Below are positions 34,325-57,494 of a stretch of DNA of 64,000 nt, in pieces (the first letter of the stretch is position 1; each line of letters opens with the position of its first letter). The translations under genes and the position numbers were made by a program. Origin of the DNA: Aeromicrobium camelliae (GTDB taxonomy: Bacteria; Actinomycetota; Actinomycetes; Propionibacteriales; Nocardioidaceae); NCBI RefSeq assembly GCF_003850045.1, contig NZ_RQJX01000010.1:44106-108105 (forward strand), written 5' to 3'. The notes beneath the pieces were generated by a model, which saw nothing but the letters and a program-made list of their open reading frames with translations, was not told the DNA's origin and made no database searches.

Positions 34325-34328
34325 GGTC

Positions 34329-36916: not shown

Positions 36917-36929
36917 TGTGACATATTAC
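36917..36929 (-). promoter_or_regulatory. Island operator, site A
   Basis: Exact TGTGACATATTAC (plus-strand reading) 47 bp upstream of the binding-protein start. Identical to site B and within one or two bases of sites C, D and E. Probable target of the GntR/FCD regulator encoded at 56769-57455. Confidence 0.65.
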
Positions 36930-36979
36930 CTACGACACGTCATCGCACCACCACTTTCGTGTTAAATCCTCGTTGCTCC

Positions 36980-37321
36980 TCAGGCATCGCGGCCGATACT
37001 GCCGTCCTCGTTCTTCACGACCCGCTGACGCACCTCATAGCGCCGGGCAGCGCCCACGGGTCCCACCAACTCGGGCAGGCCGGGGGCGACCGCGGCCCGG
37101 CGCGGGTGGTCGAGCCACTCCTGGTACGCGGCCTCGTCGGGCCACAGGGCGGTCACGACGACCTCGGGCCGATCGGCGTCGTCGATCCCGACCGCGAGCT
37201 CGGAGGCGAGGGCGCGGGTCTGCTCGAGCGAATAGGCCAGCACGTCGCCGGCGGCGTAGATCTTCTCAATCTCGGCGATGGCCTCCGGCGCCGGCCGGAA
37301 GGTCAAGATGGTGCGGATCAT
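36980..37321 (-). CDS. Small ABM/Dabb-like domain protein
   Basis: A 113-residue protein resembling the antibiotic-biosynthesis-monooxygenase fold (dimeric alpha-beta barrel): MIRTILTFRPAPEAIAEIEK and VVVTALWPDEAAYQEWLDHP. Members include heme oxygenases, quinol monooxygenases and small isomerases. No function can be assigned. It lies between the importer genes and hyuA, with site A downstream and site B upstream of it, so it is probably part of the regulon. Confidence 0.75.
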   Translation of the reverse strand: MIRTILTFRPAPEAIAEIEKIYAAGDVLAYSLEQTRALASELAVGIDDADRPEVVVTALWPDEAAYQEWLDHPRRAAVAPGLPELVGPVGAARRYEVRQRVVKNEDGSIGRDA

Positions 37322-37386
37322 GCGGGCTCCTCATGTGACAGTCGTGTAAAAAACCGTGCTTCGGGTCTCGCCACGGCTTAGTGCGG

Positions 37387-37399
37387 TGTGACATATTAC
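37387..37399 (+). promoter_or_regulatory. Island operator, site B
   Basis: Exact TGTGACATATTAC, 31 bp upstream of the hyuA ATG and 65 bp from the divergent ABM-like gene. It can control both directions. Same element as sites A, C, D and E. Confidence 0.65.
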
Positions 37400-37430
37400 T
37401 CACATCGTGACCACCGACCGGGAGAGGAAC

Positions 37431-39473
37431 ATGTCCCCGAGTACCCGCATCTCCATCGACGTCGGCGGGACCTTCACCGACGTCGTCAAACTGGATCCCA
37501 CCACGGGAGTCCTGCGATTCGAGAAGGTTCCCACCACCCCGCGTGACCCGAAGCGCGGCGTCCTCGACGCCTTCGTCAAGGCCGAGGCCCCGCTTCACGA
37601 GGTGGCCTCGTTCAACCACGGAACCACGCTCGGACTCAACTCCCTGCTGACCCGCACTGGTGCTCGGGTGGCGATCATCGGCACGCGCGGTTTCCGGGAC
37701 GTCTACCTGCTCGGGCGCACGGATCGCCGGGCGATGTACGACATCACCTATCGCAAGCCGGCTCCGCTCGTCCGCCGTCGCGACACCTTCGAGGTCACCG
37801 AGCGGACCCTCTACGACGGGTCCGTCAAGACCACGCTCGACGTCGCCGACGCCGAACGCGTCGCCCGCGAGATCGCCGAGGGCGGTTATGAGGCCGTCGC
37901 CGTCGGGTTCCTGCACGCCTACGCGAATCCCGCCAACGAGATCGCCATGGGCGAGGTCCTCGCCCGCGTGGCGCCCGACGTCGAGGTGACGCTGTCGCAC
38001 GAGCTCTCCCGCGAGTACCGCGAGTACGAGCGCACCAGCACCGCGGTCCTCGACGCCTACATCAAGCCGATCGTTCGCAACTACCTGCGTGAGCTCTCCG
38101 ACGAACTGGCCGGCGGCGATTTCGACGGCCGCTTCCTGATGTCGCGCTCCGGCGGCGGGGCGATGACCGCGCAGGCTGCGGCGGAACAGCCGGTCAACCT
38201 GATCCTGTCCGGTCCCGCCGGCGGCGTCGTGGGCGCCGCTGCGCTCTCGCACGAACTCGGCGAGCCCAACATCATCACCATCGACATGGGCGGCACGAGC
38301 CTCGACGCCTCGCTCGTCCTCGACCACGAGCCGGTCATGTACCAGGGGGCGGAGTTCGAGGGTCTCCCGATCAACACCCCCTCGCTCTACATCCACACGA
38401 TCGGCGCCGGCGGCGGTTCGATCATCTCGCTCGATGAAGCCGGCGCCCTTCAGGTCGGCCCGCAGAGCGCAGGGGCGGATCCGGGACCGGCCGCCTACGC
38501 CCGCGGCGGTTCCGAACCCACCTTCACCGACGCCGCCGTGGCGCTCGGCTACCTCGGTGCCGACGTCGCCCTCGGTGGCGACCTCCAGCTCGACGAGCAG
38601 CTCGCCGACAAGGCACTGGCGACGGTGGCCGAGCGGCTCGGTATGGGGGTCGAGGAACTGGCGCGCGGCGCAGTCCAGATCGCCAACATGAAGATCGTGG
38701 GCGCCGTCCGCGCGATCACCGTCGAACTCGGCCGTGATCCGCAGGACTTCGCGCTCATGTCCTTCGGTGGTGGCGGAGGCCTCGTTGCCGTCGACGTCGC
38801 CCGCGAACTCAACATCCCGCGCGTCATCGTGCCGCCGGGCCAGGGCGCGTTCTCGGCGCTGGGCATGCTGATGGCAGACGTGCAGCACGACTTCGCGCGG
38901 ACCTCCGTGCGGCCGCTGCGCGAGGTCGACCCCGCGTTCTTCGCCGACGCGTTCGGTGCCATGGAGGTCGAGGCCGCCGAGGCGCTCGACCGGGAGGGCT
39001 TCGGCCCGACGCACCGCACCTATCAGCGCACCGTGGACGTGCGCTATGCCGGCCAGGAGCACTCCGCCACCGTCGTCTACCCCGAGGACGCGGCGGACGT
39101 CATCGCGGCCATCGAGGAGGAGTTCGCGGTGCTGCACCACCGCCTCTACGGCCACACGATGAGCGATCCGGTCGAGATCACCACCCTGCGGCTCAAGGCC
39201 ACCGGCGTCGTGGAGAAGCCGTCGTGGCCGCGGATGGCTCAGCGCTCGGAGGGCGCACCGGAACCCATCAGCCGTCGCGACGTCCACACGACCGGCGTTC
39301 CGAGCGAGTACCGGGTCTTCAGCCGCGAGTCGCTGCTCGCCGGAGACGAGATCGCCGGACCTGCCGTCATCGCCGAGCACACCGCGACCACCGTCATGCA
39401 CGAGGGTGATCGCCTCGTGGTCGGTCCGCTCGGTGAGCTCGTCATTCACATCAAGGCCGAAGGAGAGAACTGA
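37431..39473 (+). CDS. hyuA: Hydantoinase/oxoprolinase A-type ATPase subunit (HyuA)
   Basis: A 680-residue HyuA protein: N-terminal hydantoinase A domain with the ASKHA phosphate-binding motif IDVGGTFTDVV at about residues 7-17, and a second domain with NIITIDMGGTSLDASL. HyuAB enzymes use ATP to open cyclic amides (N-methylhydantoin, 5-oxoproline) or carboxylate ketones. ATG 37431 has GGAGAGG upstream; a GTG at 37407 is less likely. It overlaps hyuB by one base (TGATG). The substrate is not known. Confidence 0.92.
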   Translation: MSPSTRISIDVGGTFTDVVKLDPTTGVLRFEKVPTTPRDPKRGVLDAFVKAEAPLHEVASFNHGTTLGLNSLLTRTGARVAIIGTRGFRDVYLLGRTDRRAMYDITYRKPAPLVRRRDTFEVTERTLYDGSVKTTLDVADAERVAREIAEGGYEAVAVGFLHAYANPANEIAMGEVLARVAPDVEVTLSHELSREYREYERTSTAVLDAYIKPIVRNYLRELSDELAGGDFDGRFLMSRSGGGAMTAQAAAEQPVNLILSGPAGGVVGAAALSHELGEPNIITIDMGGTSLDASLVLDHEPVMYQGAEFEGLPINTPSLYIHTIGAGGGSIISLDEAGALQVGPQSAGADPGPAAYARGGSEPTFTDAAVALGYLGADVALGGDLQLDEQLADKALATVAERLGMGVEELARGAVQIANMKIVGAVRAITVELGRDPQDFALMSFGGGGGLVAVDVARELNIPRVIVPPGQGAFSALGMLMADVQHDFARTSVRPLREVDPAFFADAFGAMEVEAAEALDREGFGPTHRTYQRTVDVRYAGQEHSATVVYPEDAADVIAAIEEEFAVLHHRLYGHTMSDPVEITTLRLKATGVVEKPSWPRMAQRSEGAPEPISRRDVHTTGVPSEYRVFSRESLLAGDEIAGPAVIAEHTATTVMHEGDRLVVGPLGELVIHIKAEGEN

Positions 39474-41197
39474 TGAGCAGCAACGCGATCACCCTCGAGG
39501 TCATCCGACACAGTCTGCTGGCCGGCGCGGAGGAGATGGCGCGCAACCTGTGCCGCACCGCCTACAACACCGTCGTCTACGAGATCCACGACTACGGCAT
39601 CGGCCTGCACGACGCGAACGGTGACGTCGTCGCGGACGCTCCGGGCATCGCGATCTTCACGCGCGGCAATGATCACGGCATCAAGAAGTCGATCGAGTAC
39701 GTCGGTGCCGAGAACATGGCGCCGGGCGACGTGTTCATCGTCAACCACCCGTACTGGTCCTCGGCCCACACCCTCGATCCGCTGGTGTTCGCGCCGATCC
39801 ACGTCGACGGCGAACTGATCGGGTTCTCCTCGTGCCGCATCCACGTGCTGGATCTCAAGCAGAAGAACCCCGGCTACGTGCTGGACTCGGTCGACGCGTA
39901 CGAAGAGGGTCTGGTCTTTCCGGCAAGCCGGCTTTACCGCGCAGGTGAACCCAACGACGACATCCTCAACCTCATCCGGTTCAACAGCCGGATGCCCGAG
40001 CGGACCATCGGCGACATCCAGGCCCAGGTCTCGGCCTGCGTCACGGGCGTGCGGCGGATGCAAGAGGTCGCTGCCAAGTACGGCACGCAGGAACTGCTCG
40101 ACGCCATGGTCGCGATCAACGAGCACGGTGAGAAACTCGCTCGGCTCGCGCTCGCGAAGCTGCCGAAGGGCACCTGGAGCGCGGAGGACTTCGTCGACAG
40201 CGACGGCATCGACCGCGACACGCTCGTCAAGATGAAGGCCACGGTCACCATCACCGACGACGAGATGATCGTCGACTGGACGGGTAGCGCGACGGACGTC
40301 AAGGGCCCCATCAATCTGCCCGTGGGTCAGACCGAGGCGTTGTCGAGCCTCGTGTTCAAGGCCATCACGACTCCCGACAGTCCGGTGGTCGCGGGCAATT
40401 TCGCCCCGTTGCGGGTCGTCACCGAACCCGGCTCGGTCATGCATGCCGTGCACCCGATGCCGACGTTCACACTCTGGACCGGTCTGCTGGCAGGCGAGGT
40501 CGTGCTGAAGGCGCTCGCACAGGGCATGCCCGACCGGATTCCGGCGTGCTCGGGTGGTGACGTCTCGTCGATGATGGGCTGGGGCACCGATCCGCGCACG
40601 GGAGAAGCGTGGCTCGAGGCCACCAACGAGGCCGTCGGCTTCGGCGCCCACGCAGGCGGCGATGGCGAAGACGGCATCATGCACCTGTCCGAGCCCGGTT
40701 GCCGCAACAACCCGGTCGAGGTGCTGGAGATGAAGGCTCCGCTGTTCATCGAGTCCTACGGGTACGTGCCCGACTCCGGTGGCGCCGGCCGCTTCCGCGG
40801 CGGCGTCGGCGTCAACCGCACGTACCGCTTCGAGGCCGATTCCACCGGCATCTGCTTGGTGTACAAGACCAAGTCGGCGCCGTGGGCACTCGAGGGTGGC
40901 CAGGAAGCGGTGCCGGCCAGGATCGTCCTCGACGGCGGAACCAGCGAGGAGCGCGTGCTCCAGGGCGGCACGTACCCGCGGCCTGCCGGCACCACGCTCG
41001 CCAACATCACCGGTGGTGGCGGCGGTTACGGCGACCCGCTCGAGCGTGACCCGGCGCGTGTCCTGGAGGACGTCATCGACGGGTTCGTCAGCCGGGACAA
41101 GGCCGCTGAGCTCTACGGCGTGGTGATCGACGACGCGTTCACGATCGACCACACCGCGACGGCCGAGCGCCGCGAGGCTGCCCGGGCGACCGCATGA
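39473..41197 (+). CDS. hyuB: Hydantoinase/oxoprolinase B subunit (HyuB)
   Basis: A 574-residue HyuB partner of HyuA. Family blocks: EEMARNLCRTAYNTVVYEIHDYG, FIVNHPYWSSAHTLD, PSSGGAGRFRGG-like PDSGGAGRFRGGVGVNR, and NITGGGGGYGDPLERDP near the C-terminus. It is translationally coupled to hyuA and overlaps the amidohydrolase gene by ATGA. Together they could open a lactam ring derived from proline or hydroxyproline; that substrate is inferred from context. Confidence 0.92.
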   Translation: MSSNAITLEVIRHSLLAGAEEMARNLCRTAYNTVVYEIHDYGIGLHDANGDVVADAPGIAIFTRGNDHGIKKSIEYVGAENMAPGDVFIVNHPYWSSAHTLDPLVFAPIHVDGELIGFSSCRIHVLDLKQKNPGYVLDSVDAYEEGLVFPASRLYRAGEPNDDILNLIRFNSRMPERTIGDIQAQVSACVTGVRRMQEVAAKYGTQELLDAMVAINEHGEKLARLALAKLPKGTWSAEDFVDSDGIDRDTLVKMKATVTITDDEMIVDWTGSATDVKGPINLPVGQTEALSSLVFKAITTPDSPVVAGNFAPLRVVTEPGSVMHAVHPMPTFTLWTGLLAGEVVLKALAQGMPDRIPACSGGDVSSMMGWGTDPRTGEAWLEATNEAVGFGAHAGGDGEDGIMHLSEPGCRNNPVEVLEMKAPLFIESYGYVPDSGGAGRFRGGVGVNRTYRFEADSTGICLVYKTKSAPWALEGGQEAVPARIVLDGGTSEERVLQGGTYPRPAGTTLANITGGGGGYGDPLERDPARVLEDVIDGFVSRDKAAELYGVVIDDAFTIDHTATAERREAARATA

Positions 41198-42393
41198 CCG
41201 GCACCGATCTCGTCCTGCGCTCGGGGCGGTTCCTCGATCCCGCGACCGGCGACGTCGTGGAGGGCGATCTCCTCGTCGAGAACGGGACGATCGCCGAGGT
41301 CGGCAACGTCGGCACCGTCAGCGCCGAGGTCGTCGACCTGGGCGGCGCCACCGTCGTACCGGGCTTCATCGATGCCCATTTCCACGCGTACTCGACGTGT
41401 CTCGGTGGGCTGGAGCTCGAACTGCGACCGCTCAGCTACGTCGCCGTCAACGCCACCCTTCGCCTCGGGGCGGCGGTGCGGCGCGGGTTCACGACCGTCC
41501 GTGATGTCGCGGGCGGCGACCCGGGGATCGCGTCGGCCATCGAGGAGCGTCTGTTCGTCGCGCCCCGCTACCTCTACACCGGCGCGGCGCTCAGCCAGAC
41601 CGGCGGCCACGGCGACCCTCGTCCGGGAGATCTCGACCTGTGCTTCGGACACGGCCACATGAACGAGGTGGTCGACGGTGTCGACGATCTGCGGCGTGCC
41701 GTGCGGGACCGATTCCGACAAGGCGCTCACGCGATCAAGATCATGGCGTCGGGCGGTGTCGTCTCCCCCACGGACCCGCTGCGGGTTCCGCAGTACTCGG
41801 CGGAGGAGATCCAGGCGGTGACCGACGAGGCCACTCGCCGGGGCAGCTACGTCGCGGCTCATGCGTACTCCAGCGAGGCGGTCATCCACGCTGTCACGAA
41901 CGGGGTCCGGTCGATCGAGCACGGCAACCTCATCGACGAGGAGGCCGCACGGATCATGGCTGAGCACGGCGCCTCCCTCGTACCGACCCTGGCGCCCTAC
42001 GACTCCATGAGCCGTCGCGGTGCTGAAGCGGGACTTTCGGCCGTCGGCCAGGCCAAGAACGCCGAGGTCCTGCATGCCGGTCGTGGGGCCATCGAGCTCG
42101 CCGCGCGCGCCGGCGTGCCCGTCGGTTTCGGCAGCGACCTCATGGGCGACCTCGAGGACGACCAGCTCCACGGTCTGCGACTGCAGTCCGAGGCGCAGAC
42201 ACCGCAGGAACTGTTGCGCTCCGTCACCGTGGTGAACGCCGCGCTGATCGGACGTCCGGAGCTCGGCTCCCTGGACGTCGGGACACCCGCGGACCTGGTG
42301 GCGCTCTCGGCGGACCCCTACGAGGACGTCAGCGTGATGTGGGATCTCGCCCGTCCCCGGACGGTGATCCACGGGGGCGTCGTCGTCGGCTGA
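41194..42393 (+). CDS. Amidohydrolase-superfamily metal-dependent hydrolase, prolidase-like subgroup
   Basis: A 399-residue amidohydrolase: small beta domain, then a TIM barrel. Metal ligands: HxH in DAHFHAY (62-64), Lys181 in IKIMASGG (carbamylated bridging Lys), His222 in AHAYS, His242 in IEHG, and Asp in GFGSDLMGD (about 308). This pattern with KIMASGG is that of imidazolonepropionase-like peptidases, some of which cleave Xaa-Pro dipeptides. It is coupled to hyuB. An Xaa-hydroxyproline peptidase role would fit the island but is not proven. Confidence 0.87.
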   Translation: MTGTDLVLRSGRFLDPATGDVVEGDLLVENGTIAEVGNVGTVSAEVVDLGGATVVPGFIDAHFHAYSTCLGGLELELRPLSYVAVNATLRLGAAVRRGFTTVRDVAGGDPGIASAIEERLFVAPRYLYTGAALSQTGGHGDPRPGDLDLCFGHGHMNEVVDGVDDLRRAVRDRFRQGAHAIKIMASGGVVSPTDPLRVPQYSAEEIQAVTDEATRRGSYVAAHAYSSEAVIHAVTNGVRSIEHGNLIDEEAARIMAEHGASLVPTLAPYDSMSRRGAEAGLSAVGQAKNAEVLHAGRGAIELAARAGVPVGFGSDLMGDLEDDQLHGLRLQSEAQTPQELLRSVTVVNAALIGRPELGSLDVGTPADLVALSADPYEDVSVMWDLARPRTVIHGGVVVG

Positions 42394-42411
42394 CGCGATC
42401 GCGCCCGCTAC

Positions 42412-42458
42412 CGCCAGTGGCGCGGCCCGGGGATGCTCCCCGGGCCGCGCCGCTGGCG
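42412..42458. terminator. Bidirectional terminator between the two island operons
   Basis: A 21-bp stem with a single wobble, arms 42412-42432 and 42438-42458 and loop ATGCT. It lies 18 nt after the amidohydrolase stop and 38 nt after the proC stop on the other strand. It serves both convergent operons. Confidence 0.75.
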
Positions 42459-42496
42459 TTCGGGAGTGCGTCTCGCTCAGCGCGGTCGCGACGAGT

Positions 42497-43306
42497 TCAG
42501 GGACGGTCGAGTTCGACGGCCCGGCGGATCGACGCAGCGAATGCCTGAACGAAGAGCTCGTCGGGCGCCGCCGACTCGAGGACGGCGACCGCGCGCTCGG
42601 TGGTCCCACCGGGACTGGTCACCCGCCGGCGCAGCTCCTGCGCGGAGACGTCGGACTCCTGGAGCAGGGCCGCGGCACCGATGATCGTCTGGCGCACCGC
42701 CGCCTCAGCATGCGTCGCGGACAACCCGGTCTCGAGGGCTGCGTTCGTCATCGCTTCGGCAAGTCGGAACACGTAGGCCGGTCCGCTGCCGGAGACCGCG
42801 CTCAGCACGTTGACGCCGGCTTCGTCGGGCAACGGCACGACGAGCCCGACGCGGGAGAACCACTCGGTGAGCAGTCGCTCCTCACCGGACGCGTCCGGCT
42901 CGACGAGCAGCCCGATCACGCCCTCGCCGACGCCCGTCGGAGTGTTGGGCATGAGACGGACCAGGCGCGGCCGAGGACCGGCGTGGCGGCGCAGCGTCTC
43001 GAAGCTCACCCCTGCGGCGACGGAGACGACGACCGTCCCCTCGCTGATCTCCTCTGCGATCTCCTCGAGCAGCTGCGGCAGCTGGTAGGGCTTGACGCAC
43101 ACGAACACCACCCCGGCTCCGCGGACCGCGCGGACGTTCGCCTGAGGGTCGTGTTCCGTCGACAGGATCGGGAGGTCGGCCGGGTCGCCGTCGCGCGCGC
43201 CGGCGGATCGACGCGTCGCCACCACCTCCGTGACCTCCGGCGCCGCGCCGACGGCTGCCACGATGCCCCGGGTGATCGACCCGAGACCGAGGATCGCGAC
43301 CTTCAC
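42497..43306 (-). CDS. proC: Pyrroline-5-carboxylate reductase family protein
   Basis: A 269-residue ProC-type NAD(P)H reductase. Rossmann start VKVAILGLGSITRGI (GxGxxTxG instead of the usual GxGxMG), VKPYQLPQLLEEI, MPNTPTGVGEG and the C-terminal AVSGSGPAYVFRLAEAM. The GTG start overlaps the upstream reductase gene as GTGA. As last gene of a hydroxyproline operon it may reduce a pyrroline intermediate such as pyrroline-3-hydroxy-5-carboxylate or pyrroline-2-carboxylate, rather than serve housekeeping proline synthesis. Confidence 0.87.
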   Translation of the reverse strand: MKVAILGLGSITRGIVAAVGAAPEVTEVVATRRSAGARDGDPADLPILSTEHDPQANVRAVRGAGVVFVCVKPYQLPQLLEEIAEEISEGTVVVSVAAGVSFETLRRHAGPRPRLVRLMPNTPTGVGEGVIGLLVEPDASGEERLLTEWFSRVGLVVPLPDEAGVNVLSAVSGSGPAYVFRLAEAMTNAALETGLSATHAEAAVRQTIIGAAALLQESDVSAQELRRRVTSPGGTTERAVAVLESAAPDELFVQAFAASIRRAVELDRP

Positions 43307-44250
43307 CGGTCGGCGTCCATCACGGCGGCCGCGACGACGAGGTCCTCCCACGCCATGCCGACGGACTTGAAGAACACCGGCCGGCCGGCCGGGTGAACGT
43401 CCTCCGCGGCCACGTCGGCGAGCGTGACGAGGTCGTCGGGATCGAACGTCCCGGCCTCGATGGCCATGACGACGTCGCCGGCCTCGCGCAGTGCCGGGTC
43501 GCGGTCTTCGACGATGACCCGCGCGCGGCCGACCAGCTTCTCGTCGACCTCACGTGCGTCTGGATCGTGCGACCCGACCGCGATGACGATGGCGTCGTCG
43601 CGCAGCAGGGCGGAATCGAACACCGGCTCGCGAGCCGACGTGGCGCAGTGGACGATGCCGGCTTGCGCGACGGCCCGGTCGGCCTCGGCCGAGCCCACCT
43701 GCACGACGTCACACGCGACGCCCGCCAGCTCAGCCGGGAGGTCGGCACGTTCGGGGTCGCGCACGACGAAGGTGACCGACGCGATCTCGCGGATGCCGTC
43801 GACCACATCTGCCGTCGTCGTGACATGGCGGATCGCCTGGATGCCGGCGCCGAACGCTACGACGTGAAGCGGCGAGGTGTCGGCGAGCAGGTGCTGCCGG
43901 ACCCCGGCGAGCGACACCGCCGGCGTCCTCAGTGCCGTCAGTTCGATGCCGTCGAGGACGGCGCGGGGCGCGAGCGTGACGGCGTCGAACAGCAGGTAGA
44001 GGCCCTGGATGCGCGGCAGACCGTGCTCGCGGTTGCCGGGTGCCACGGTGACGATCTTGACGCCGGTGTCCGCACCGTGCTCGGCCGGCATGAGGATGTA
44101 GTCGCCGTGCGTGAGCGGCACGAAGGTGCGCGGCGTCGACGTCGACGGGTCGAGCCCGTCACGAAGCGAGGCGACCAGTGCGTTCACGGCATCGCGGGGC
44201 CGCAGCCGCGCGACGGCAGCGGCGTCGAGGTACGAGAGGGTGTCGGTCAT
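43303..44250 (-). CDS. Ornithine cyclodeaminase/mu-crystallin family reductase
   Basis: A 315-residue protein with the OCD/mu-crystallin fold: an N-terminal dimerisation part (GDYILMPAEHG, GVKIVTVAPGNREHGLP) and a Rossmann domain with FGAGIQAIRHV. In trans-3-hydroxyproline operons this family supplies pyrroline-2-carboxylate reductase (LhpI). Its position directly after a proline-racemase-family gene supports that role here. ATG 44250 overlaps that gene by ATGA. Confidence 0.85.
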   Translation of the reverse strand: MTDTLSYLDAAAVARLRPRDAVNALVASLRDGLDPSTSTPRTFVPLTHGDYILMPAEHGADTGVKIVTVAPGNREHGLPRIQGLYLLFDAVTLAPRAVLDGIELTALRTPAVSLAGVRQHLLADTSPLHVVAFGAGIQAIRHVTTTADVVDGIREIASVTFVVRDPERADLPAELAGVACDVVQVGSAEADRAVAQAGIVHCATSAREPVFDSALLRDDAIVIAVGSHDPDAREVDEKLVGRARVIVEDRDPALREAGDVVMAIEAGTFDPDDLVTLADVAAEDVHPAGRPVFFKSVGMAWEDLVVAAAVMDADR

Positions 44251-45269: not shown

Positions 45270-45270
45270 G

Positions 45271-46758: not shown

Positions 46759-46766
46759 GGGGCTCC

Positions 46767-47768: not shown

Positions 47769-47806
47769 GTGACCTCCTGAATCGAGTATGTGCGGCACCT
47801 GGTGAA

Positions 47807-47845
47807 GGACGCCCGGCGCACTGCAAACGCAGGCGCCGGACGTCC
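47807..47845 (-). promoter_or_regulatory. Intercistronic hairpin inside the hydroxyproline operon
   Basis: A 13-bp stem with one wobble (arms 47807-47819 and 47833-47845) topped by CTGC-AAAC-GCAG. It lies between the deaminase stop and the epimerase Shine-Dalgarno. It could be an attenuator, a partial terminator or an RNA stability element that splits the operon into two expression levels. Confidence 0.55.
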
Positions 47846-47856
47846 TCCTCAGCGCA

Positions 47857-48774: not shown

Positions 48775-48785
48775 GATGAGTCCTT

Positions 48786-50222
48786 TCACGGGATGTGGTG
48801 AGGGGATGTTTCGGTGGACTGAGGCGCACGGGCGAGGTCGCCGATACGCAAAGGGGCGGCGATGGGACGCCGATCGGTGGTGGCCCCGTCGGCGAACGCG
48901 GCGCACCCTGACGAGCCGGACAGCAACTGCTCGACCGAACGGCCGCAGATGCGGCCTTGGCAGAGCCCGAGCCCGGCACGGGTCGTGAGTTTGAGGGACC
49001 GCAGCCCGACCGACGCGGTCGACTCCGCGACGCGGGCGAGAGTCCCGGCGTCGACCTCCTCACAGCGGCAGACGATGGTGTCGTCCTGCAGCCAGGTAGA
49101 CCACGACGCGCCGATGGGATGGGCCGTCGCGATGCGCTCGGCGAACCGAGCGAAGCGGTCACGAGCGCGCCGCGCCGCGCGCACCGATGCGTCGGCGCTC
49201 CGGCCGCCGGCGGCGACCCAGCCGGCGATCTCGCCCTCGGCGAGCGCGAGATCGACTCCGCCGATCGCGGTGATCTCGCCCGCCGCGAACACGCCATCCA
49301 CGCTCGTGCGCTGCTCGCCGTCCACGCGTACGAAGCGCTCGTCGGTGAGCTCGCACCCTGCCGCGACGGCGAGTTCGAGACGCGGGGTGAACCCGTGGCC
49401 CAGGCAGACGGCGTCGCAGGCGATGCGCCGCTCGGTTCCAGGCACCGGGGCCCAGTCCGCGTCGAGTCGCGCGACCGTGACCGCTTCGACGCGATCGGTG
49501 CCGTGGATCTCCACGACGCCGAAGCCGGTGCGGTACGGCACGCGGCCGCGCAGGTGGTGCGCGACGTAGCCGGCGAGCTCACTGACCTTGTGGGACGCCC
49601 CCATCAGTTCCCAGGGGCGCGCGAGCCAATGACGAGCCATGCGCGAGGGGCGGGACGCCTCGAAGACGCCGACGACCCGAGCACCGGCCTGTCCGAGCGA
49701 TGCGGTCACGGGGAACAGGAACGGCCCGGAGCCGGCGACGACGACGCGGTCGCCGACGGCGATCCGCTCCCCCTTCGCCATGGCCTGGGCGGCTCCCGCA
49801 GTGAAGACGCCCGGCAGGGTCCATCCGGGCACCGGCAGCGCACGGTCGTGCGCTCCGGTGGCGAGCACGAGGCGGTCGGGCACGACGGTCTCGGTGACGC
49901 GGGTGCCGTCGACATCGCCGTACGCGAGGTTGACGCGCAGGCTGCCATCGGCACGCCGCTCGATGGCCCAGACCTGAGTCTCGGTGTCGATCGTGCATCC
50001 CGAGTCCGACTCCAGGGCCTGGCGCAACGACTGGTAGGCGCCCCACTGATGGTGCAGGACCGACTCGCGTCCCGAGGGACGGCTCTCGGGAAGATGACGC
50101 CAGTATTGGCCGCCGGTGCGCTCGGCGGAGTCGATGACGCGGACCATGGCGCCACGCCGACGTGCGGCGGCAGCGGCCGCGAGGCCGGCCGGGCCGGCTC
50201 CGACGACGAGGACGTCGGTCAT
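48786..50222 (-). CDS. FAD/NAD-dependent oxidoreductase subunit with C-terminal [2Fe-2S] domain
   Basis: A 478-residue HcnB/OoxA-like subunit. FAD motif VVGAGPAGLAAAAAARRRG at the N-terminus, a second Rossmann (VVVAGSGPFLFPVTASL) near 175, GVFAAGEI near 310. A C-terminal BFD-like Cys cluster, CRCEE and CQGRICG, holds a [2Fe-2S]. With the ferredoxin-like subunit and the DAO-type subunit it likely forms a heterotrimeric cis-4-hydroxy-D-proline dehydrogenase like LhpBEF of Pseudomonas. ATG overlaps the ferredoxin subunit stop. Confidence 0.9.
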   Translation of the reverse strand: MTDVLVVGAGPAGLAAAAAARRRGAMVRVIDSAERTGGQYWRHLPESRPSGRESVLHHQWGAYQSLRQALESDSGCTIDTETQVWAIERRADGSLRVNLAYGDVDGTRVTETVVPDRLVLATGAHDRALPVPGWTLPGVFTAGAAQAMAKGERIAVGDRVVVAGSGPFLFPVTASLGQAGARVVGVFEASRPSRMARHWLARPWELMGASHKVSELAGYVAHHLRGRVPYRTGFGVVEIHGTDRVEAVTVARLDADWAPVPGTERRIACDAVCLGHGFTPRLELAVAAGCELTDERFVRVDGEQRTSVDGVFAAGEITAIGGVDLALAEGEIAGWVAAGGRSADASVRAARRARDRFARFAERIATAHPIGASWSTWLQDDTIVCRCEEVDAGTLARVAESTASVGLRSLKLTTRAGLGLCQGRICGRSVEQLLSGSSGCAAFADGATTDRRPIAAPLRIGDLARAPQSTETSPHHIP

Positions 50223-50554
50223 GATCCCGCCTCCTCGACGCGTCGGGGCAGTTCGTCGTGCTGACGCTCGACCTGCGCGCCGTCACGAGCGGTGCGCTGG
50301 CACGCGCGGACGTCACGTTGGCCGTCGACGGTGACGACGCAGTCGAAGCACACACCGATGCCGCAGAACAGGCCGCGAGGCTCGTGGCGCGTGGAGGTCG
50401 TGCGCCAGTCGAGGACGTTGTTGGCCAACAGGACACCGGCGACCGACTGGCCGCGGACACCGACGTACTCGCGGCCTTCGAAGGTGATCGTCACGGGGTC
50501 CGTGGGGCCCGGTTGGATGGGGTCACGTCGCGGGTCGACGGCGCGCGCGCTCAT
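50219..50554 (-). CDS. Small [2Fe-2S] ferredoxin-like subunit of amino acid dehydrogenase
   Basis: A 111-residue Fer2_4 (HcnA-like) subunit. VTITFEGREYVGVRGQSVAGVLLAN leads to the Cys pattern CGIGVCFDCVVTVDG...RAC, four cysteines for a [2Fe-2S] cluster. It passes electrons between the two flavin subunits. ATGA overlaps on both sides couple the three genes in the order catalytic flavoprotein, ferredoxin subunit, FAD/BFD subunit. Confidence 0.9.
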   Translation of the reverse strand: MSARAVDPRRDPIQPGPTDPVTITFEGREYVGVRGQSVAGVLLANNVLDWRTTSTRHEPRGLFCGIGVCFDCVVTVDGQRDVRACQRTARDGAQVERQHDELPRRVEEAGS

Positions 50555-51732
50555 GAGGCGACCTCCTGCAGGTGGGGAGCCAACGTGGGGCGATCGATCG
50601 CGAACGGCGCGGGATCCAACGGAGACTCCGTGTCCATCACCTGGGCGAGCAACAGCTCGGCCGAGGAGACCGACAAGCCGATGCCCGCGCCCTCGTGGCC
50701 CGTCACGTGATACAGGTTCGGCAACCGCGGGTCCTCACCGATGACGGGAAGGTGATCGGGCATGTACGGCCGGAAGCCGCCGTAGGTCCGCAGGACCTGC
50801 ATGTCCTCGAGGAACGGGAAGAGCCGCAACGACTTCATCGCGATCTCTCGGATGACCTCGACGTCGAGCCGATCGTCGAAGCCGACCCGCTGGCGCGAGG
50901 ACCCGATGAGCACCGTGCCGGCGGCCGTCGACTCCACAACGGTCGAGGTCTGCAGGTCCGCATCACCGGACTGGGTCGCTCCGACATAGTCGGCGTCGTA
51001 CACCTTGCGGAAGACGCGGTGCGGCATGCGCGTGGTCACGAGCACCATCCCGCGACGCGGCAGCACCGGAAGCTCGACGCCGAGCGTCCCCGCGACCGCA
51101 CCCGCCCAGGGGCCAGCGGCGTTGACGACGAGATCGGCGTGGAGGTCGCCGCGGGACGTGCGTACGCCCGCGATCCGGCCGGTCGCGTCGCGCAATGCCC
51201 CCACGACCTCGGTCGACGTCATCACGCGAGCACCCGCGCGCCGCGCGGACGCCAGTAGCGCCTCGACGGCCGCGACCGGCTGAACCTGCGCGTCCTGCGG
51301 GTAGTAGACCGCCGCAGTGATCTCGGGATTGAGGTGCGGTTCGAGCTCGAGGGCGTCGTCCGCTCCGATCTCGCGCGCGTCGATCCCGACGTCACGCTGT
51401 GACGCAGCGAAGCCGCGCAGCGGATCGGCGCCCTCGGCCGTCGTCGACACGACGAGGCCGCCCTTGGGCTCGAACTCGATGGAGGGGAAGCCGGGCCCGA
51501 GCTCGTCCTGCAGTTCGCGGGCGACGAGCGGCCACCGAACCGCTGCGTCCACCGCGAGGTCGAGCTCGGGACCCGGAGTCTTGTCCGAGACGAGGAGATT
51601 GCCCTCGCACATGGCCGACGTGCCGCCTGCCACGGCGCCTCGCTCGACGACAGTGACGTCATAGCCGGCGCGGGCGAGCACCCGGGCACAGGCAGCGCCG
51701 GTGATGCCGGCGCCGATCACGACAACGCGCAT
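50551..51732 (-). CDS. FAD-dependent D-amino acid oxidase-family subunit (catalytic)
   Basis: A 393-residue DAO-superfamily flavoprotein. FAD-binding MRVVVIGAGITGAACARVL at the N-terminus; GGFRPYMPDHLPVIGE and HVTGHEGAGIGLS close the flavin site. It is the likely catalytic subunit oxidising cis-4-hydroxy-D-proline to pyrroline-4-hydroxy-2-carboxylate. ATG 51732 has GAGGAG upstream. First gene of the nine-gene operon; operator site C is 21-33 bp before the start codon. Confidence 0.9.
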   Translation of the reverse strand: MRVVVIGAGITGAACARVLARAGYDVTVVERGAVAGGTSAMCEGNLLVSDKTPGPELDLAVDAAVRWPLVARELQDELGPGFPSIEFEPKGGLVVSTTAEGADPLRGFAASQRDVGIDAREIGADDALELEPHLNPEITAAVYYPQDAQVQPVAAVEALLASARRAGARVMTSTEVVGALRDATGRIAGVRTSRGDLHADLVVNAAGPWAGAVAGTLGVELPVLPRRGMVLVTTRMPHRVFRKVYDADYVGATQSGDADLQTSTVVESTAAGTVLIGSSRQRVGFDDRLDVEVIREIAMKSLRLFPFLEDMQVLRTYGGFRPYMPDHLPVIGEDPRLPNLYHVTGHEGAGIGLSVSSAELLLAQVMDTESPLDPAPFAIDRPTLAPHLQEVAS

Positions 51733-51752
51733 GAGATCTCCTCCTCTCGAGG

Positions 51753-51765
51753 GTAATATATCACA
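51753..51765 (-). promoter_or_regulatory. Island operator, site C
   Basis: On the minus strand TGTGATATATTAC, one base from the A/B sequence, 21 bp upstream of the first gene of the hydroxyproline operon. A position so close to the start suggests repression by blocking the transcription start. Confidence 0.62.
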
Positions 51766-51777
51766 TACTACCGGCCC

Positions 51778-51813: not shown

Positions 51814-51814
51814 G

Positions 51815-52525
51815 TCAGGCGCCGAGGTAGGCCTCGACGACCCTCGGATCGTCGGCCAGTTCGGCGGCCGGGCCGGACAGCGTCACGTGGCCCGTCTCGA
51901 CGACGTACGCCCGGTGCGCGATACGTAGCGCCGCCTTGGCGTTCTGCTCGACGAGCAGCACCGTGGTGCCCTGCTGATTGACCTCGGCGATGATCTCCAT
52001 GACCTGCTTGACGATCAACGGCGCGAGACCCATGGACGGCTCGTCGAGCAGCAGCAGACGCGGACCGGCCACGAGAGCACGTCCGATCGCGAGCATCTGC
52101 TGCTCGCCGCCGGACAGAGTGCCGCCCTGTTGCTTGCGGCGCTCGTGCAGCCGCGGCATGAGGTCGTAGGCCTGCTGAACCCGCTTCTCGACGAGGGACG
52201 CGTCCGCGACGCGGTACCCGCCGAGCATGAGGTTCTCGTGCACGGTCATCGTGCTGAAGATCCGACGCCCCTCGGGAACGTGGACGACGCCGTGCGTCAC
52301 GAGGTCGTGCGCGGGAAGACTGCCCAGGTCGGTGCCGTTCCACGTGATCGTGCCCCGGGTCGCCTTGACGAGTCCGGACAGCAGGTTCATCGTGGTGGTC
52401 TTGCCGGCACCGTTGTTGCCCAGGAGGGAGACGATCTCCCCCTCCCCCACCTCGAAGCTCAGCGAACGCAGGGCGTGGACCCGGCCGTAGTGCACGTCGA
52501 CGCCGTCGACGACGAGACCGCTCAT
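51815..52525 (-). CDS. livF: Branched-chain-type ABC transporter ATPase (LivF-like)
   Basis: A 236-residue ABC ATPase of the LivF type: GNNGAGKTTTMNLLSG, LSGGEQQMLAIGRALV, LLLLDEPSMGLAPLIV. It energises the importer formed by LivH/LivM with the LivK-like lipoprotein. Last gene of livK-H-M-G-F; start overlaps livG (ATGA). Substrates of this family include branched amino acids, urea, amides and proline derivatives; here hydroxyproline is the contextual guess. Confidence 0.92.
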   Translation of the reverse strand: MSGLVVDGVDVHYGRVHALRSLSFEVGEGEIVSLLGNNGAGKTTTMNLLSGLVKATRGTITWNGTDLGSLPAHDLVTHGVVHVPEGRRIFSTMTVHENLMLGGYRVADASLVEKRVQQAYDLMPRLHERRKQQGGTLSGGEQQMLAIGRALVAGPRLLLLDEPSMGLAPLIVKQVMEIIAEVNQQGTTVLLVEQNAKAALRIAHRAYVVETGHVTLSGPAAELADDPRVVEAYLGA

Positions 52526-53318
52526 GCCGCTCCCTCCTCATCGGTGCCGAGATACGCCTCGATCACCTTCGGGTCGTTCTTGATCTGCTCAGGCGTGCCG
52601 TCGGCGATCTCCTTGCCGTAATTGAGCACGATGATCCGCTCGGAGATGTCCATGACGAGTCCCATGTCGTGCTCGATCAACACGATGCCGATCCCCAGCT
52701 CGCGGATCCGGCGGATGAGGTCGATCAGCTGGCGCTTCTCGCTGTGGTTCAGGCCCGCCGCGGGTTCGTCGAGCAGCAGCAACCGCGGCGACGTCGCGAG
52801 GGCGCGAGCGATCTCCACACGACGCTGCTCGCCGTAGGGCAGCTGCGTCACGTAGAGGTCCTCGTCGCCCCGGAAGCCCACGAAGTCGAGCCAACCGCGC
52901 GCATCCTCGACACACTGCGCCTCACTGCGGCGGTACCGCGGCGTGTGCAGCATCGCATCGAACCACCGCTGACTCAGGTCCGCGTGCATGGCGGTCTTGA
53001 CGTTGTCGAGGACCGACATCTCCTTGAACAAGCGCAGGTTCTGGAACGTCCGGGCCATGCCGAGCTTGGTGATCGTCGACGGCAACGACCGGATGATCGA
53101 GCGACCGTCGAAGGTGATCGACCCGCTGGTGGGCCGGTAGAACCCGGTGATGCAGTTGAACGCCGAGGTCTTGCCCGCCCCGTTAGGTCCGATGACCGAG
53201 ACGATCTCGCCGGCGTGCACCGACATGCTCAGCCCGTCGACGGCCTTGACGCCGCCGAAGGCCAGATGGAGGTCCTTGACCTCGAGCAGGGTCTCCCCCT
53301 GCGTGACGGTGCCGTCGG

Positions 53319-53322
<4 letters not shown>
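52522..53322 (-). CDS. livG: Branched-chain-type ABC transporter ATPase (LivG-like)
   Basis: A 266-residue ABC ATPase: GPNGAGKTSAFNCITGFYRP, the LivG-typical ARTFQNLRLFKEMSVLDNV, YGEQRRVEIARAL as signature, LLLLDEPAAGLNHSE. It pairs with LivF. ATG 53322 overlaps the livM stop by 4 nt. Confidence 0.92.
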
Positions 53323-54505
<1,183 letters not shown>

Positions 54506-54509
<4 letters not shown>

Positions 54510-55399
54510 ATCCGTTCCACGACGCGGGCGCCGAGGAGCCCGGTCGGCTTGAAGGACAGGAAGAGGATGAGGCAGGCGAAGGAGAAGACGTCACGCCACT
54601 CGCCGCCGAGCCAAGCCGACCCGAACGACTCGAGCAGGCCGAGCGTCAGGCCACCGAGCATCGCTCCGTAGAGGTTGCCGATACCGCCGATGACCGCAGC
54701 GGTGAAGGCCTTGAGGCCGATGACGAAGCCCATGAGGAAGTCGATCGAACCGTAGTACGCGCCGGCCATGACGCCCGCCGCTCCGGCGAGCGCCGAACCG
54801 ATGAAGAAGACGCGCGCGATGACGCCGTTGACGTTGATGCCCATGAGGGTCGAGGCCTGCGGGTCGAGCGCGATGGCGCGCATCGCACGGCCCTCGCGCG
54901 TCTTGTTGACGTAGAACGCGAGCACGACCATGAGCAGCGCCGCGACGCCCATGAGGGCGAGCTGCGCCGTGGAGACGCGGGCACCGAACAGGTCGAGCGA
55001 TCCGCCGCTGAGCCGGACCGGGTAAGCCTTCGGCGAGGGGCCGAAGATCTGGCGCACGGCGTACTCGAGAGTGAACGACATCCCGACCGCGGTGATGAGG
55101 ACCGCGAGCCGCGGTGAGGTCCGCAATGGCCGGTAGGCGACGCGTTCGATGCCGACGCCGAGCAGACCCGTGAAGATCATCGCGACGAGGATGAGCAGGA
55201 TGAGCGTGGGCACGGTGGCGGCGGCCGTGAGTCCGCCGAAGGACGTCAGTGTCACGAAACCGACGAACGCGCCGATCATGTAGACGTCGCCATGGGCGAA
55301 GTTCAGCAACTTGATGATGCCGTACACCATGCTGTAGCCGAGCGCGATGAGCGCGTAGAACGAGCCCACGAAAAGCCCGTTGAGAATGATCTGAGACAT
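54506..55399 (-). CDS. livH: Branched-chain-type ABC transporter permease (LivH-like)
   Basis: A 297-residue permease with about 8 transmembrane helices. MSQIILNGLFVGSFYALIALGYSMVYGIIKLLNFAHGD at the N-terminus and KTREGRAMRAIALDPQASTLMGIN as cytoplasmic coupling loop are typical of LivH. It is separated from the binding-protein gene by 68 bp with a hairpin. Confidence 0.93.
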
Positions 55400-55426
55400 G
55401 TGGTGGTTGCTCCGATGCAGGGGGCG

Positions 55427-55457
55427 GCACGGGACGCGGGGTCACCGCGTCCCGTGC
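55427..55457 (-). promoter_or_regulatory. Hairpin between livK-like and livH-like genes
   Basis: A perfect 13-bp stem, GCACGGGACGCGG and its complement, with a 5-nt loop, 10 nt after the binding-protein stop. It probably stabilises the binding-protein message and attenuates the permease and ATPase genes. Confidence 0.6.
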
Positions 55458-55467
55458 CTGGGTGTCA

Positions 55468-56652
55468 TCAGTCGTCGAGCAGGTCGTCGTGCAGAACGAA
55501 CGTGCCGTCGTCGCCGATCGTCACGATCGCGAAGCCACCCTGCTCGCGCGTTCCCTGATCGGTGAAGGTGAGCGGGCCGGCGAAGGTCTCGAAGCCGTCG
55601 AGCCCGTGCAGCGCGTCGACCACCTCGGCCATGTCGGTCGTACCGGCCTCCTTGATGGCCTCGGCCGCGACGCGCACGGCGTCGTACGACTGGGTCGAGT
55701 ACGGCCCGGGCTCAGCGCCGAACTTCTCCTTGTACTCGGCGATCCAGTCACCGGCACCCTCGAGCATGTCCGGCGTCTGCGTGAACGTGCCGTAGACGTT
55801 CTCGGTGTAGCCCTCGCCCGTGATCTCGGCGAAGCTGGCGTCGACCGAGCCGTCGCCGACCAGGAACGTGCCCTCGTAGCCGGCGTCCTTCGCCTGGCGG
55901 TTGATGAGCGCGCCCTCCTGGTAGTACCCGGTCCAGTAGACGAAGTCCGCGCCGGAGCCGACGATCTTGTTCGCCTCGGCGGCGTAGTCCTTCTCCTTCG
56001 GCGTGACCGTGGCGTCCTCGACGATCTCGAGGCCGGCCTCCGACGCCTGCTCGGCGAACGAGTCCGCGAGGTCGACGGAGTAGTCGGTCGAGTCGTCGAT
56101 GACCGCGACCTTGGTCGCGCCTTCCTTCTGCGCGAACTTCACCGCGGCCTCGGCCTGCTGCGTTCCGGTGCCGTTGATGAGGAAGACGTTCTCCTGGTCC
56201 GACTCCGGCAGAGCATTGGAGTTGGCCGCGGGGATCACCATCGGGACCTCGGCCTGCAGGAAGATCGGGAGCGTCGGGAGGGTCGCGCCCGAGCAGTAGC
56301 CGCCCACGGAGGCGACGATGCCCTGGGACACGAGCTTGTTCGCGGCCGAGACGGCGGTCGTCGCGTCGCAGGCGTCGTCCTCCGTGACGAGCTCGATCTC
56401 CTTGCCGTCGATGCCGCCGTCGGCGTTGATCTCGTCGACGGCCATCTGGGCGCCGTTCTTCATGTACTCGCCGAACGCGCTCTCGGAGCCCGAGAACGGG
56501 GCGAGGAGGCCGAACTTGAGGGTGTCGCCGGACGCGTCGTCACCGCTACCGCCGACACCGCCGGCGCAGCCGGCCAGGACGGTGGCCACGGCGGCGCTCA
56601 CAGCGGCGAAGCGAGCGCGCTGCCACCCGCGGGTGGAGCGAATGCTGGTCAT
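55468..56652 (-). CDS. livK: Branched-chain-type substrate-binding lipoprotein (LivK-like)
   Basis: A 394-residue lipoprotein: lipobox VLAGC with Cys29, Gly/Ser-rich linker, then a Peripla_BP_6 fold (LKFGLLAPFSGSESAFGEYMKNGAQMAVDEIN). Binding-cleft residues are in GGYCSGATLPTLP and TGYYQEGALINRQ. First gene of the importer operon, with operator site D 53 bp upstream. The adjacent hydroxyproline operon suggests a cyclic amino acid ligand; not shown by sequence alone. Confidence 0.92.
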   Translation of the reverse strand: MTSIRSTRGWQRARFAAVSAAVATVLAGCAGGVGGSGDDASGDTLKFGLLAPFSGSESAFGEYMKNGAQMAVDEINADGGIDGKEIELVTEDDACDATTAVSAANKLVSQGIVASVGGYCSGATLPTLPIFLQAEVPMVIPAANSNALPESDQENVFLINGTGTQQAEAAVKFAQKEGATKVAVIDDSTDYSVDLADSFAEQASEAGLEIVEDATVTPKEKDYAAEANKIVGSGADFVYWTGYYQEGALINRQAKDAGYEGTFLVGDGSVDASFAEITGEGYTENVYGTFTQTPDMLEGAGDWIAEYKEKFGAEPGPYSTQSYDAVRVAAEAIKEAGTTDMAEVVDALHGLDGFETFAGPLTFTDQGTREQGGFAIVTIGDDGTFVLHDDLLDD

Positions 56653-56705
56653 ACGTGTGCCTTTCTGCCGGGCGCGTCCCCGAGCCAGCGCCAACGAAGT
56701 TGCAA

Positions 56706-56718
56706 TGTGACACATTAC
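56706..56718 (-). promoter_or_regulatory. Island operator, site D
   Basis: TGTGACACATTAC (plus strand), one base from the A/B sequence, 53 bp before the livK-like start. A further TGTGAC at 56725-56730 may be a second half-site. Confidence 0.6.
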
Positions 56719-56768
56719 ATACCATGTGACGCAGGTGACGGAACGATTTCAGCGAAAGTCACCGAAAG

Positions 56769-57455
56769 TCAATTCGTTGCGGTGGCGGCCGTTTCCTCGG
56801 CCTCGCCACTCCACCAGCCGAGGACGTGCCCGATGTGGCGGTCCATGAGATCGGCCGCCCCCTGACCATCGCCCGCCTCGAGCAGATCGAGCAGCATCGC
56901 ATGCTCGTCGATCGAGGCACGCAACTGCTCAGGGGTGATCTTCGAGGCGATGCCGACCGTGCGGGTCTGATCGCGCAGGTTGCCGACGACGTCGACCAGC
57001 ACCGGGTTGCCGAGCAAGCCGAGCAGTCCGAGGTGGAAGGCCTTGTCCGATCGCACGTACGTGGCGAAGTCGCGCGCCTCAGCGGAGTCGTTGATGGCGG
57101 CGACCAGCTCGTCGAAGCGGGAGCGCACGGAGGCGTCGAAGACCTGGGCAACCTCGTGCATCGGCGGGCATTCGAGCATGCGGCGGGTGTGGACGAGGTG
57201 CACGAGCTCGTCGCGGCTGACCTCACGCACCCGGAAGCCACGGTTGCGCACCGGGACGACGAAGCCGCGCCGCGCGAGGTTGAGCATCGCCTCGCGGACC
57301 GGGGTGGCCGAGACGTCGTACTGCTGTGCGAGCACCGGCACCGTGAGCAACTCGTGCGGGGGTACCTGCCCGGCGATGATGGCCGCCGTCAGCGACTCCT
57401 CGATCTGCTCACGCAGACTGTGTCCCGGTTCGATCCGGGGAGTCACCCAGCTCAT
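56769..57455 (-). CDS. GntR-family regulator with FCD domain
   Basis: A 228-residue regulator. The winged-helix DNA-binding domain is about 1-75 with the GntR pattern VSATPVREAMLNLARRGFV. The FCD ligand domain is about 85-215, with metal-binding-type His in DKAFHLGLL, DEHAMLLDLL and DRHIGHVLGW. ATG 57455 follows AAAGG. A weaker copy of the island operator (site E) lies 27 bp upstream, suggesting autoregulation. Probably senses hydroxyproline or a pathway intermediate. Confidence 0.9.
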   Translation of the reverse strand: MSWVTPRIEPGHSLREQIEESLTAAIIAGQVPPHELLTVPVLAQQYDVSATPVREAMLNLARRGFVVPVRNRGFRVREVSRDELVHLVHTRRMLECPPMHEVAQVFDASVRSRFDELVAAINDSAEARDFATYVRSDKAFHLGLLGLLGNPVLVDVVGNLRDQTRTVGIASKITPEQLRASIDEHAMLLDLLEAGDGQGAADLMDRHIGHVLGWWSGEAEETAATATN

Positions 57456-57481
57456 GTCGTCGCCTTTCTCGCGCACTGCTG

Positions 57482-57494
57482 CGTGACATACTAC
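57482..57494 (-). promoter_or_regulatory. Island operator, site E, before the regulator gene
   Basis: CGTGACATACTAC on the plus strand, matching 11 of 13 positions of sites A and B. It overlaps the end of the upstream lipoprotein gene and lies 27 bp from the regulator start. Confidence 0.5.

Follow-up and report, generated by a model that had tools for sequence, protein, structure and literature searches.

A conserved operator outlines a probable HypR-type hydroxyproline regulon with a HyuAB-prolidase-like module in Aeromicrobium camelliae

We analyzed a 64-kb stretch of the genome of Aeromicrobium camelliae (RefSeq assembly GCF_003850045.1, contig NZ_RQJX01000010.1, positions 44,106 to 108,105 of the forward strand), here referred to as the window, with a focus on five gene units that share an operator sequence and probably form a regulon for the use of hydroxyproline (Hyp), an amino acid found in collagen and in the cell walls of plants. 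All positions given below are those of the window. The presumed regulator gene (56769..57455, minus strand) encodes a GntR/FCD protein of the HypR type with matches above the cut-off to PF00392 (53 bits) and PF07729 (82 bits). It is followed on the same strand by genes for a LIV-type ABC importer (livF, G, M, H, and K, identified by domain searches; 51815..56652) and by an operon for hydroxyproline breakdown (42497 to 51732).

The operon starts with genes for DAO, 2Fe-2S, and FAD/NAD proteins (48786..51732, minus strand; PF01266, PF13510, and PF07992), which are predicted to be the three subunits of a D-hydroxyproline dehydrogenase and are arranged in the same order as SCO6289-6291 of Streptomyces coelicolor, which have been read as three such subunits (PMC6608401). 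The subsequent DHDPS-family gene (47857..48774, minus strand; PF00701) has the operon place of SCO6292 and is predicted to encode a pyrroline-4-hydroxy-2-carboxylate deaminase. Two proline-racemase-family genes (44247-45269 and 46767-47798, minus strand; PF05544) surround an aldehyde dehydrogenase gene (45271-46758, minus strand; PF00171), the best solved relatives of which are 3v4c and 1eyy, and the operon ends with genes of the proC reductase type (TIGR00112, 205.6 bits, cut-off 196.75) and of the OCD/mu-crystallin type (PF02423), located at 42497..44271 on the minus strand. The two racemase-family proteins share 31% identity, and each falls short of the NCBIfam cut-offs set for the named enzymes. 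Both keep C101 and C264 (numbering of the first), which we take to be the two catalytic cysteines of 4-hydroxyproline epimerase and proline racemase, and they are therefore predicted to be epimerases or racemases.

The remaining units consist of a sugar-type ABC importer with permease, ATPase, and binding protein (33350..36870, minus strand; PF02653, PF00005, and PF13407), a small ABM-like gene (36980..37321, minus strand), which matched PF03992 with 22.9 bits, just below the cut-off of 23.1, and a plus-strand unit of hyuA, hyuB, and an amidohydrolase gene. HyuA and HyuB (37431..41197; PF01968, PF05378, and PF02538) are predicted to form an ATP-dependent enzyme of the lactamase/hydantoinase type, and their nearest curated models are the caprolactamase subunits, for which the cut-offs were missed (456.5 and 222.6 bits, respectively, against 1000). 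The amidohydrolase (41194..42393) is prolidase-like, with a full-length match of 303 bits to 3feq/3n2c, which are reportedly COG1228 prolidases (Xiang et al. in 2010), and a match of 229.2 bits to the Xaa-Pro dipeptidase model NF051886, which is under its cut-off of 500. The HxH, K, H, H, and D motifs, which presumably make up the metal site, aligned with those of 3feq/3n2c and the residues were identical. The amidohydrolase gene and the Hyp operon converge, and a long G+C-rich inverted repeat that separates their ends (about 42412-42460) is probably a two-way terminator.

A preliminary description of this DNA had placed a 13-bp sequence, TGTGACATATTAC, 20 to 60 bp before the first genes of five units, with no further copy noticed in the window. 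Searches of the window and of the whole 3.06-Mb genome (40 contigs) bore this out. The 13-mer was found in exact form at 36917 and 37387, with one mismatch at 51753 (minus strand) and 56706, and with two mismatches at 57482. Up to 3 mismatches, there were 9 matches in the window, where 1.27 were expected; the other four contained 3 mismatches each, two of them (51759 and 56702) overlapped with the operators and the remaining two (25456 and 25479) formed a pair.

Measured from the 12-mer core to the chosen start codon, the gaps ranged from 20 to 54 bp. Operator 1 (36911..36929, plus strand; 12-mer 36918-36929) has an exact core located 47 bp before the start of the sugar-type binding protein gene at 36870, and operator 2 (37381..37399, plus strand; 12-mer 37388-37399), also with an exact core, is located 31 bp before the hyuA ATG at 37431 as well as 66 bp before the divergent ABM-family gene (37321, minus strand). 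Operator 3 (51753..51771, minus strand; 12-mer 51753-51764) and operator 4 (56700..56718, plus strand; 12-mer 56707-56718) have one mismatch each and are located 20 bp before the DAO start at 51732 and 54 bp before the livK start at 56652, respectively. The longest open reading frames of these two genes overrun the operators, and the ATGs at 51732 and 56652 were chosen. Operator 5 (57476..57494, plus strand; 12-mer 57483-57494) has one mismatch in the 12-mer and is located 27 bp before the gntR start at 57455.

In the genome as a whole, the core GTGACATATTAC was found in 2 exact and 3 one-mismatch places, all of which were the five window sites, and no sixth place with up to one mismatch was present in the 3.06 Mb. 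Equally good copies at unrelated genes, which would have spoken against a dedicated operator, were thus absent, and the five best sites are these five. With up to 2 mismatches there were 24 places, 19 of which had two, as compared with 2 for the backwards pattern. A matrix built from the five sites gave each of them at least 21.6 bits, while the next places in the window scored from 14.7 to 11.5 and consisted of overlaps of the five sites and the pair at 25457/25480. When each site was left out of the matrix in turn, it still ranked in the top five of all window positions, and the pattern GTGACATNNYAC matched 3 of the 5 window sites and nothing else. The genome count and the sites at matching genes elsewhere, described below, led us to reject both chance and repeated DNA as the source of the five sites.

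The 19 two-mismatch places were considered as further members of the regulon and rejected, as all scored below 16.9, the lowest value of the 37 sites in Hyp-linked loci; the best were GTGACGTAGTAC within a gene (16.7) and GTGACACATCAC 192 bp before an open reading frame of 418 amino acids (16.2). Separately, three similar stretches (TGTGACATTCTTC, TGTGACATTCTTC, and GTGACGTCCTTC) about 23 bp apart were observed at 25455-25516, upstream of the minus-strand open reading frame 23932-25362, and are perhaps another operator array. The start of this reading frame resembles what we take to be cytochrome bd oxidase subunit I.

The shape of the operator was studied in an alignment of 42 hand-picked sites, 9 of which came from three plasmid loci and the others from Hyp and related loci. 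Outside the 12-mer, a purine was present at −5 and at −2 in all 42 sites, T at −1 in 34 and at −6 in 31, and G at −7 in 28, which extends the consensus to a 19-bp operator, GTRNYRTGTGACATAKTAC. The best dyad centre was the third base of GTGAC, with a fraction of complementary pairs of 0.63 over nine pairs, two of which were weak (9 and 14 of 42 sites). The next centre over an equal span, 0.52, was that of the 12-bp dyad proposed in the preliminary description, which was therefore rejected as the operator symmetry; one of its six pairs was complementary in none of the 42 sites and another in 6. The formula given for a near-palindromic core, GTnAnATATnTnAC, does not fit the sites; a 12-bp dyad would be GTnAnATnTnAC, and the 19-bp dyad fits better. 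On average, 3.9 of the 7 positions of the left arm, which was not used to find the sites, were a match to the right arm, as compared with at most 2.96 in slid versions. Within the window, operator 3 alone comes near the full dyad (left arm 6 of 7), and the other four keep 2 or 3 of the 7 positions. Alternatively, the site may represent a shorter palindrome with an extra half-site beside it, an arrangement described for GntR regulators with a distance of 7 to 12 nucleotides (PMC4494728).

Relatives of the GntR/FCD protein were identified in 10 genomes from a family sample of 197 and in 4 from a phylum sample of 396, the A. camelliae genome being excluded. Sites were counted throughout 8 of these 14 genomes, and in the 20-kb gntR locus alone for the other six. 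With up to one mismatch, there were 4 sites in G094, 2 in G038, 4 in G420, 2 in G463, 1 in G135, 1 in G324, and 2 in G547, while the backwards pattern was absent from all 8. The 16 sites were located before or between Hyp, importer, peptidase, GH127, and gntR genes. In G094, which we take to be Aeromicrobium phragmitis, exactly 4 sites were present, at hyuA, the sugar-type importer, DAO, and gntR. In G038, where the regulator, the LIV importer, and the Hyp operon were ordered as in the window, livK and DAO were each preceded by a site and gntR by one with two mismatches. One of the two operators in G463 preceded an M24 aminopeptidase P gene that overlapped with gntR. The 20-kb gntR loci of the six other genomes contained no Hyp operon and no site within one mismatch.

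The G420 genome (locus L074, 11322-13427) contained two exact operators 23 bp apart, followed by a GH127 beta-L-arabinofuranosidase gene and oligopeptide-importer genes. Plant glycoproteins rich in hydroxyproline carry beta-arabino-oligosaccharides (PMC5928203), and the HypR-type regulon of this genome may include the breakdown of plant extensin. Extensin sugars were also considered as a source for the regulon of the window, and this idea was dropped because no GH127 match was found in the A. camelliae genome.

Matches to the DAO protein in 41 of the 396 genomes, including its own, yielded 20 new loci, which together with 6 earlier ones made up 26 Hyp loci. Of the 18 loci with a related GntR protein, all except L111 (17 of 18) had a site with up to one mismatch within 200 bp before DAO, as compared with 1 of the 8 loci without such a protein (L075, the genome of which, G463, encodes the GntR protein elsewhere). 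Since four of the 8 are 16 kb or shorter, the gntR gene may lie outside them. In the background, 18 of 2,409 tiled 200-bp segments of these loci matched, real sites included. The association has a Fisher value of 9e-5, which overstates the independence of the loci because they are related. One large-genome genus, taken to be Streptomyces, accounted for 15 of the 26 loci, 14 of which contained the GntR gene, and in 10 of these 14 the site that precedes gntR was identical to one of three sequences bound by HypR in S. coelicolor.

HypR of S. coelicolor has been studied by Kotowska et al. (2019), who described a 21-bp footprint that contains TACAATGTCAC, as well as gel shifts with the TGCAATGTCAC and TGCCATGTCAC promoters (PMC6608401). 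The protein represses the Hyp operon, L-Hyp induces the operon in cells, L-Hyp and D-Hyp were without effect on DNA binding in vitro, and the symmetry of the site was called unclear (PMC6608401). The window site GTAATATGTCAC, read on the other strand, agrees with the footprinted TACAATGTCAC at 9 of 11 positions, and the DNA-contact residues of HypR (Ser, Thr, Arg, Arg, and Asn) are kept in the window protein as S49, T51, R54, R70, and N71. Furthermore, the window protein shares 40% to 44% identity with the GntR proteins of loci with the SCO6289-6294 gene order. A tree of 29 GntR proteins, which contained several long branches, placed all of these in one group of 23 rows, which included the proteins from Hyp-operon loci and was split from the other six with support values of 98/95.

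The fourth contact residue was Pro in 9 of the other 28 GntR proteins. Those with Pro at the position of Arg71 in S. coelicolor HypR came from loci L054, L107, L109, L111, L113, L114, L116, L120, and L121, several of which have GTGACATAGTAC before DAO, and the fourth contact residue and the operator may covary.

The binding of the GntR/FCD protein to the five sites is a prediction from sequence, and another regulator might read them instead. We consider this very improbable, given that one of the sites precedes the gene for the protein itself, that the operator accompanies this GntR clade across families, and that HypR of S. coelicolor binds a related sequence (PMC6608401). The six relatives outside the clade, the loci of which were without a site within one mismatch, also argue against another regulator. 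The assignment of the GntR/FCD protein as the regulator, made in the preliminary description, gains support from the conservation of the operator with related GntR genes and from the match to the footprinted sequence. On the same grounds, together with the uniqueness of the sites in the genome, the five-operator region is very likely a HypR regulon of a known kind.

Under this interpretation, the GntR/FCD protein would likely repress all five units together, and a predicted product of hydroxyproline breakdown would release it. The LIV-type importer would bring in Hyp, which the operon at 42497-51732 would convert by an epimerase, the three-subunit D-Hyp dehydrogenase, the deaminase, and a semialdehyde dehydrogenase to 2-oxoglutarate. 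A cyclic or N-blocked Hyp/Pro dipeptide may enter through the sugar-type importer; HyuAB would then use ATP to open the amide ring, and the imino acid would be released by the prolidase-like amidohydrolase. We infer from the partners and neighbors described below that the module salvages such cyclic or blocked dipeptides.

The two exact operators were also present in A. phragmitis, 470 bp apart and before hyuA and the sugar-type importer. The locus in this species (L025) was syntenic except that it lacked two features of the window, the second racemase-family gene (44247-45269) and the LIV importer (51815-56652); counterparts of both were observed in another genus (L039). In Euzebya rosea (G358) and Euzebya pacifica (G592), the genes for HyuA, HyuB, the binding protein, ATPase, permease, and amidohydrolase formed one row divergent from the Hyp operon, with a PucR-family gene between the rows and an M17 aminopeptidase gene after the amidohydrolase gene in G592. 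No operator with up to 2 mismatches was found in the stretches read of the two genomes. The operator had been thought to join genes that would otherwise be unlinked; the five operators do join them, whereas the Euzebya rows tie the hyuAB-amidohydrolase-importer genes to Hyp genes by neighborhood without it.

Plasmid p232 of Arthrobacter sp. Rue61a contained, in a 50-kb stretch (L161), a HyuA-HyuB-GAF-amidohydrolase unit and Hyp genes with gntR, as well as an aminopeptidase P gene, an oligopeptide importer, a PucR gene, and two M9-family annotations, one of which was a short N-terminal piece. The stretch contained four sites with up to 2 mismatches: one 345 bp before the racemase-DAO unit, one 70 bp before the amino-acid importer, one 44 bp before the DHDPS unit, and one 11 bp before the oligopeptide importer. 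The plasmid is conjugative, and its set of HypR-type sites and genes of the collagenase type and for peptide uptake, prolidase, and Hyp catabolism is possibly a mobile island for the use of collagen. On plasmid pYJN5-3, a HyuA-HyuB-GAF-amidohydrolase unit was followed by putA, with no operator. More distant HyuAB pairs (43% to 44%) were directly followed by an M24 peptidase gene in L158 and L159; in L156 such a gene was located some genes further on and DHDPS, DAO-like, and 2Fe-2S genes adjoined the pair. Finally, L157 contained an ABM-like gene, a sugar-type importer, and an OCD gene together with HyuAB.

Besides the A. camelliae gene, two HyuA relatives with more than 60% identity were found in the sample of 396 genomes, both at Hyp operons, and samples of 5 and 66 genomes yielded the same two. 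The generalization that close HyuA relatives always occur at Hyp operons was not kept, as a larger protein search, of which the best 120 of at least 895 matches were listed, contained many relatives in other genera with 68% to 71% identity, the surroundings of which were not seen. These relatives are compatible with a substrate of the module, such as a sugar or an unrelated amide, that yields neither Hyp nor Pro and came under HypR by chance, as are the importer family PF13407, which is best known for sugars, and the p232 unit without a HypR site. We regard this as unlikely in view of the two exact operators and their conservation in A. phragmitis, the occurrence in Euzebya of the same six genes next to the Hyp operon even where the operator is absent, and the putA gene behind the unit on pYJN5-3.

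Several observations weigh against a HypR regulon that includes the module. The likeness to S. coelicolor is one of gene order, operator, and contact residues. No site within one mismatch was found in G059 (77% complete), which combines a related GntR gene with Hyp and LIV genes, and no site with up to 2 mismatches in L111, which contains a related GntR gene and Hyp genes. The HyuAB-type module was missing from the 39 kb around the regulator in G038, and HyuAB on p232 was not preceded by any site with up to 2 mismatches, which leaves Aeromicrobium as the only genus where the module shows signs of HypR control. Furthermore, among 9 places with amidohydrolase relatives in 7 other genomes, 3 were beside Hyp genes, 1 was at a contig end, and 5 were not beside Hyp genes. 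The content of the regulon thus varies, as seen from the missing module in G038 and from the genes missing in A. phragmitis.

As for the substrate, import, ring opening, and cleavage by a prolidase are proposed because the partners of HyuAB are proline-type peptidases and the neighboring pathways are those of Hyp/Pro catabolism. Enzymes of the HyuAB type open lactam rings using ATP, and a cyclic dipeptide is suggested on this basis together with two statements in the literature. The authors of the caprolactamase study suggested that relatives may be cyclic dipeptide hydrolases (PMC6061476), and a 2013 study, in which 15 peptidases were tried on diketopiperazines without cleavage of any of those tested, called the responsible enzymes unclear (PMC3852281). 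We tentatively suggest that HyuAB, as the ATP-dependent diketopiperazine hydrolase, the prolidase-like amidohydrolase, and the sugar-type importer could constitute a dedicated, HypR-coupled pathway for Hyp/Pro diketopiperazines from collagen or plant-wall protein. If true, this would put names to the enzymes for the breakdown step that was called unclear in 2013 (PMC3852281).

The main rival, which we consider a serious possibility, is that the module within the regulon acts on N-acyl-Hyp/Pro or on a Hyp/Pro hydantoin rather than on a cyclic dipeptide, from which the imino acid would still be obtained. Hydantoinases are among the relatives of HyuAB, the units on p232 and pYJN5-3 are located near an Asp/Glu-family racemase and a second hydantoinase-type gene, and aminoacylases have been discussed alongside COG1228 enzymes. 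The recurrent partners of HyuAB, by contrast, are proline-type peptidases (M24 and COG1228), and an M17 aminopeptidase follows in G592, which speaks against this rival. Taken as a whole, the evidence from peptidase partners and neighbors separates neither substrate class from the other.

Among open-licence papers, no link between Hyp and HyuAB was found in those on hydroxyproline with hydantoinase and prolidase, and the combination of hydroxyproline, hydantoinase, and collagen operon gave one unrelated review. Nothing was found there on diketopiperazine with oxoprolinase, on hydroxyproline catabolism in Aeromicrobium, or on hydroxyproline in Arthrobacter Rue61a, and no match for the 19-bp form, the LIV importer, or the HyuAB-prolidase-importer unit in such a regulon. 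The module, which is usually annotated as N-methylhydantoinase, is here linked to the use of Hyp/Pro.

Among known systems, the module resembles the CapAB caprolactamase of Pseudomonas jessenii, a two-subunit ATP-dependent lactam hydrolase (PMC6061476), from which HyuA and HyuB differ in scoring far below the curated cut-offs. The amidohydrolase is like the COG1228 prolidases 3feq/3n2c in its full-length match and metal-site motifs, and unlike the Xaa-Pro dipeptidases in falling short of their NCBIfam cut-off. The HypR regulons of Proteobacteria, likened here by description and not by sequence, also combine a GntR regulator with Hyp catabolic genes, are often autoregulated, and include an OCD-type gene in some cases, whereas neither HyuAB nor a prolidase is mentioned in the available part of that account (PMC5343134).

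The closest counterpart is the HypR regulon of S. coelicolor, from which the regulator type, the operator core, and the Hyp operon are already known. As in the window, a GntR/FCD regulator gene (SCO6294) is located beside an operon of DAO, 2Fe-2S, FAD/NAD, DHDPS, and racemase genes, and an operator precedes the gene for the regulator itself. The S. coelicolor regulon includes a collagenase gene and a 2-oxoglutarate decarboxylase/dehydrogenase gene (PMC6608401), whereas the window adds the LIV-type importer, the sugar-type importer, HyuAB, and the prolidase-like enzyme. The 19-bp form of the operator comes from the present analysis, no such form being described for S. coelicolor in the available part of that study (PMC6608401), and it supplies a site with a testable dyad. 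With this operator defined, the HypR regulon of S. coelicolor is extended to other actinobacterial families.

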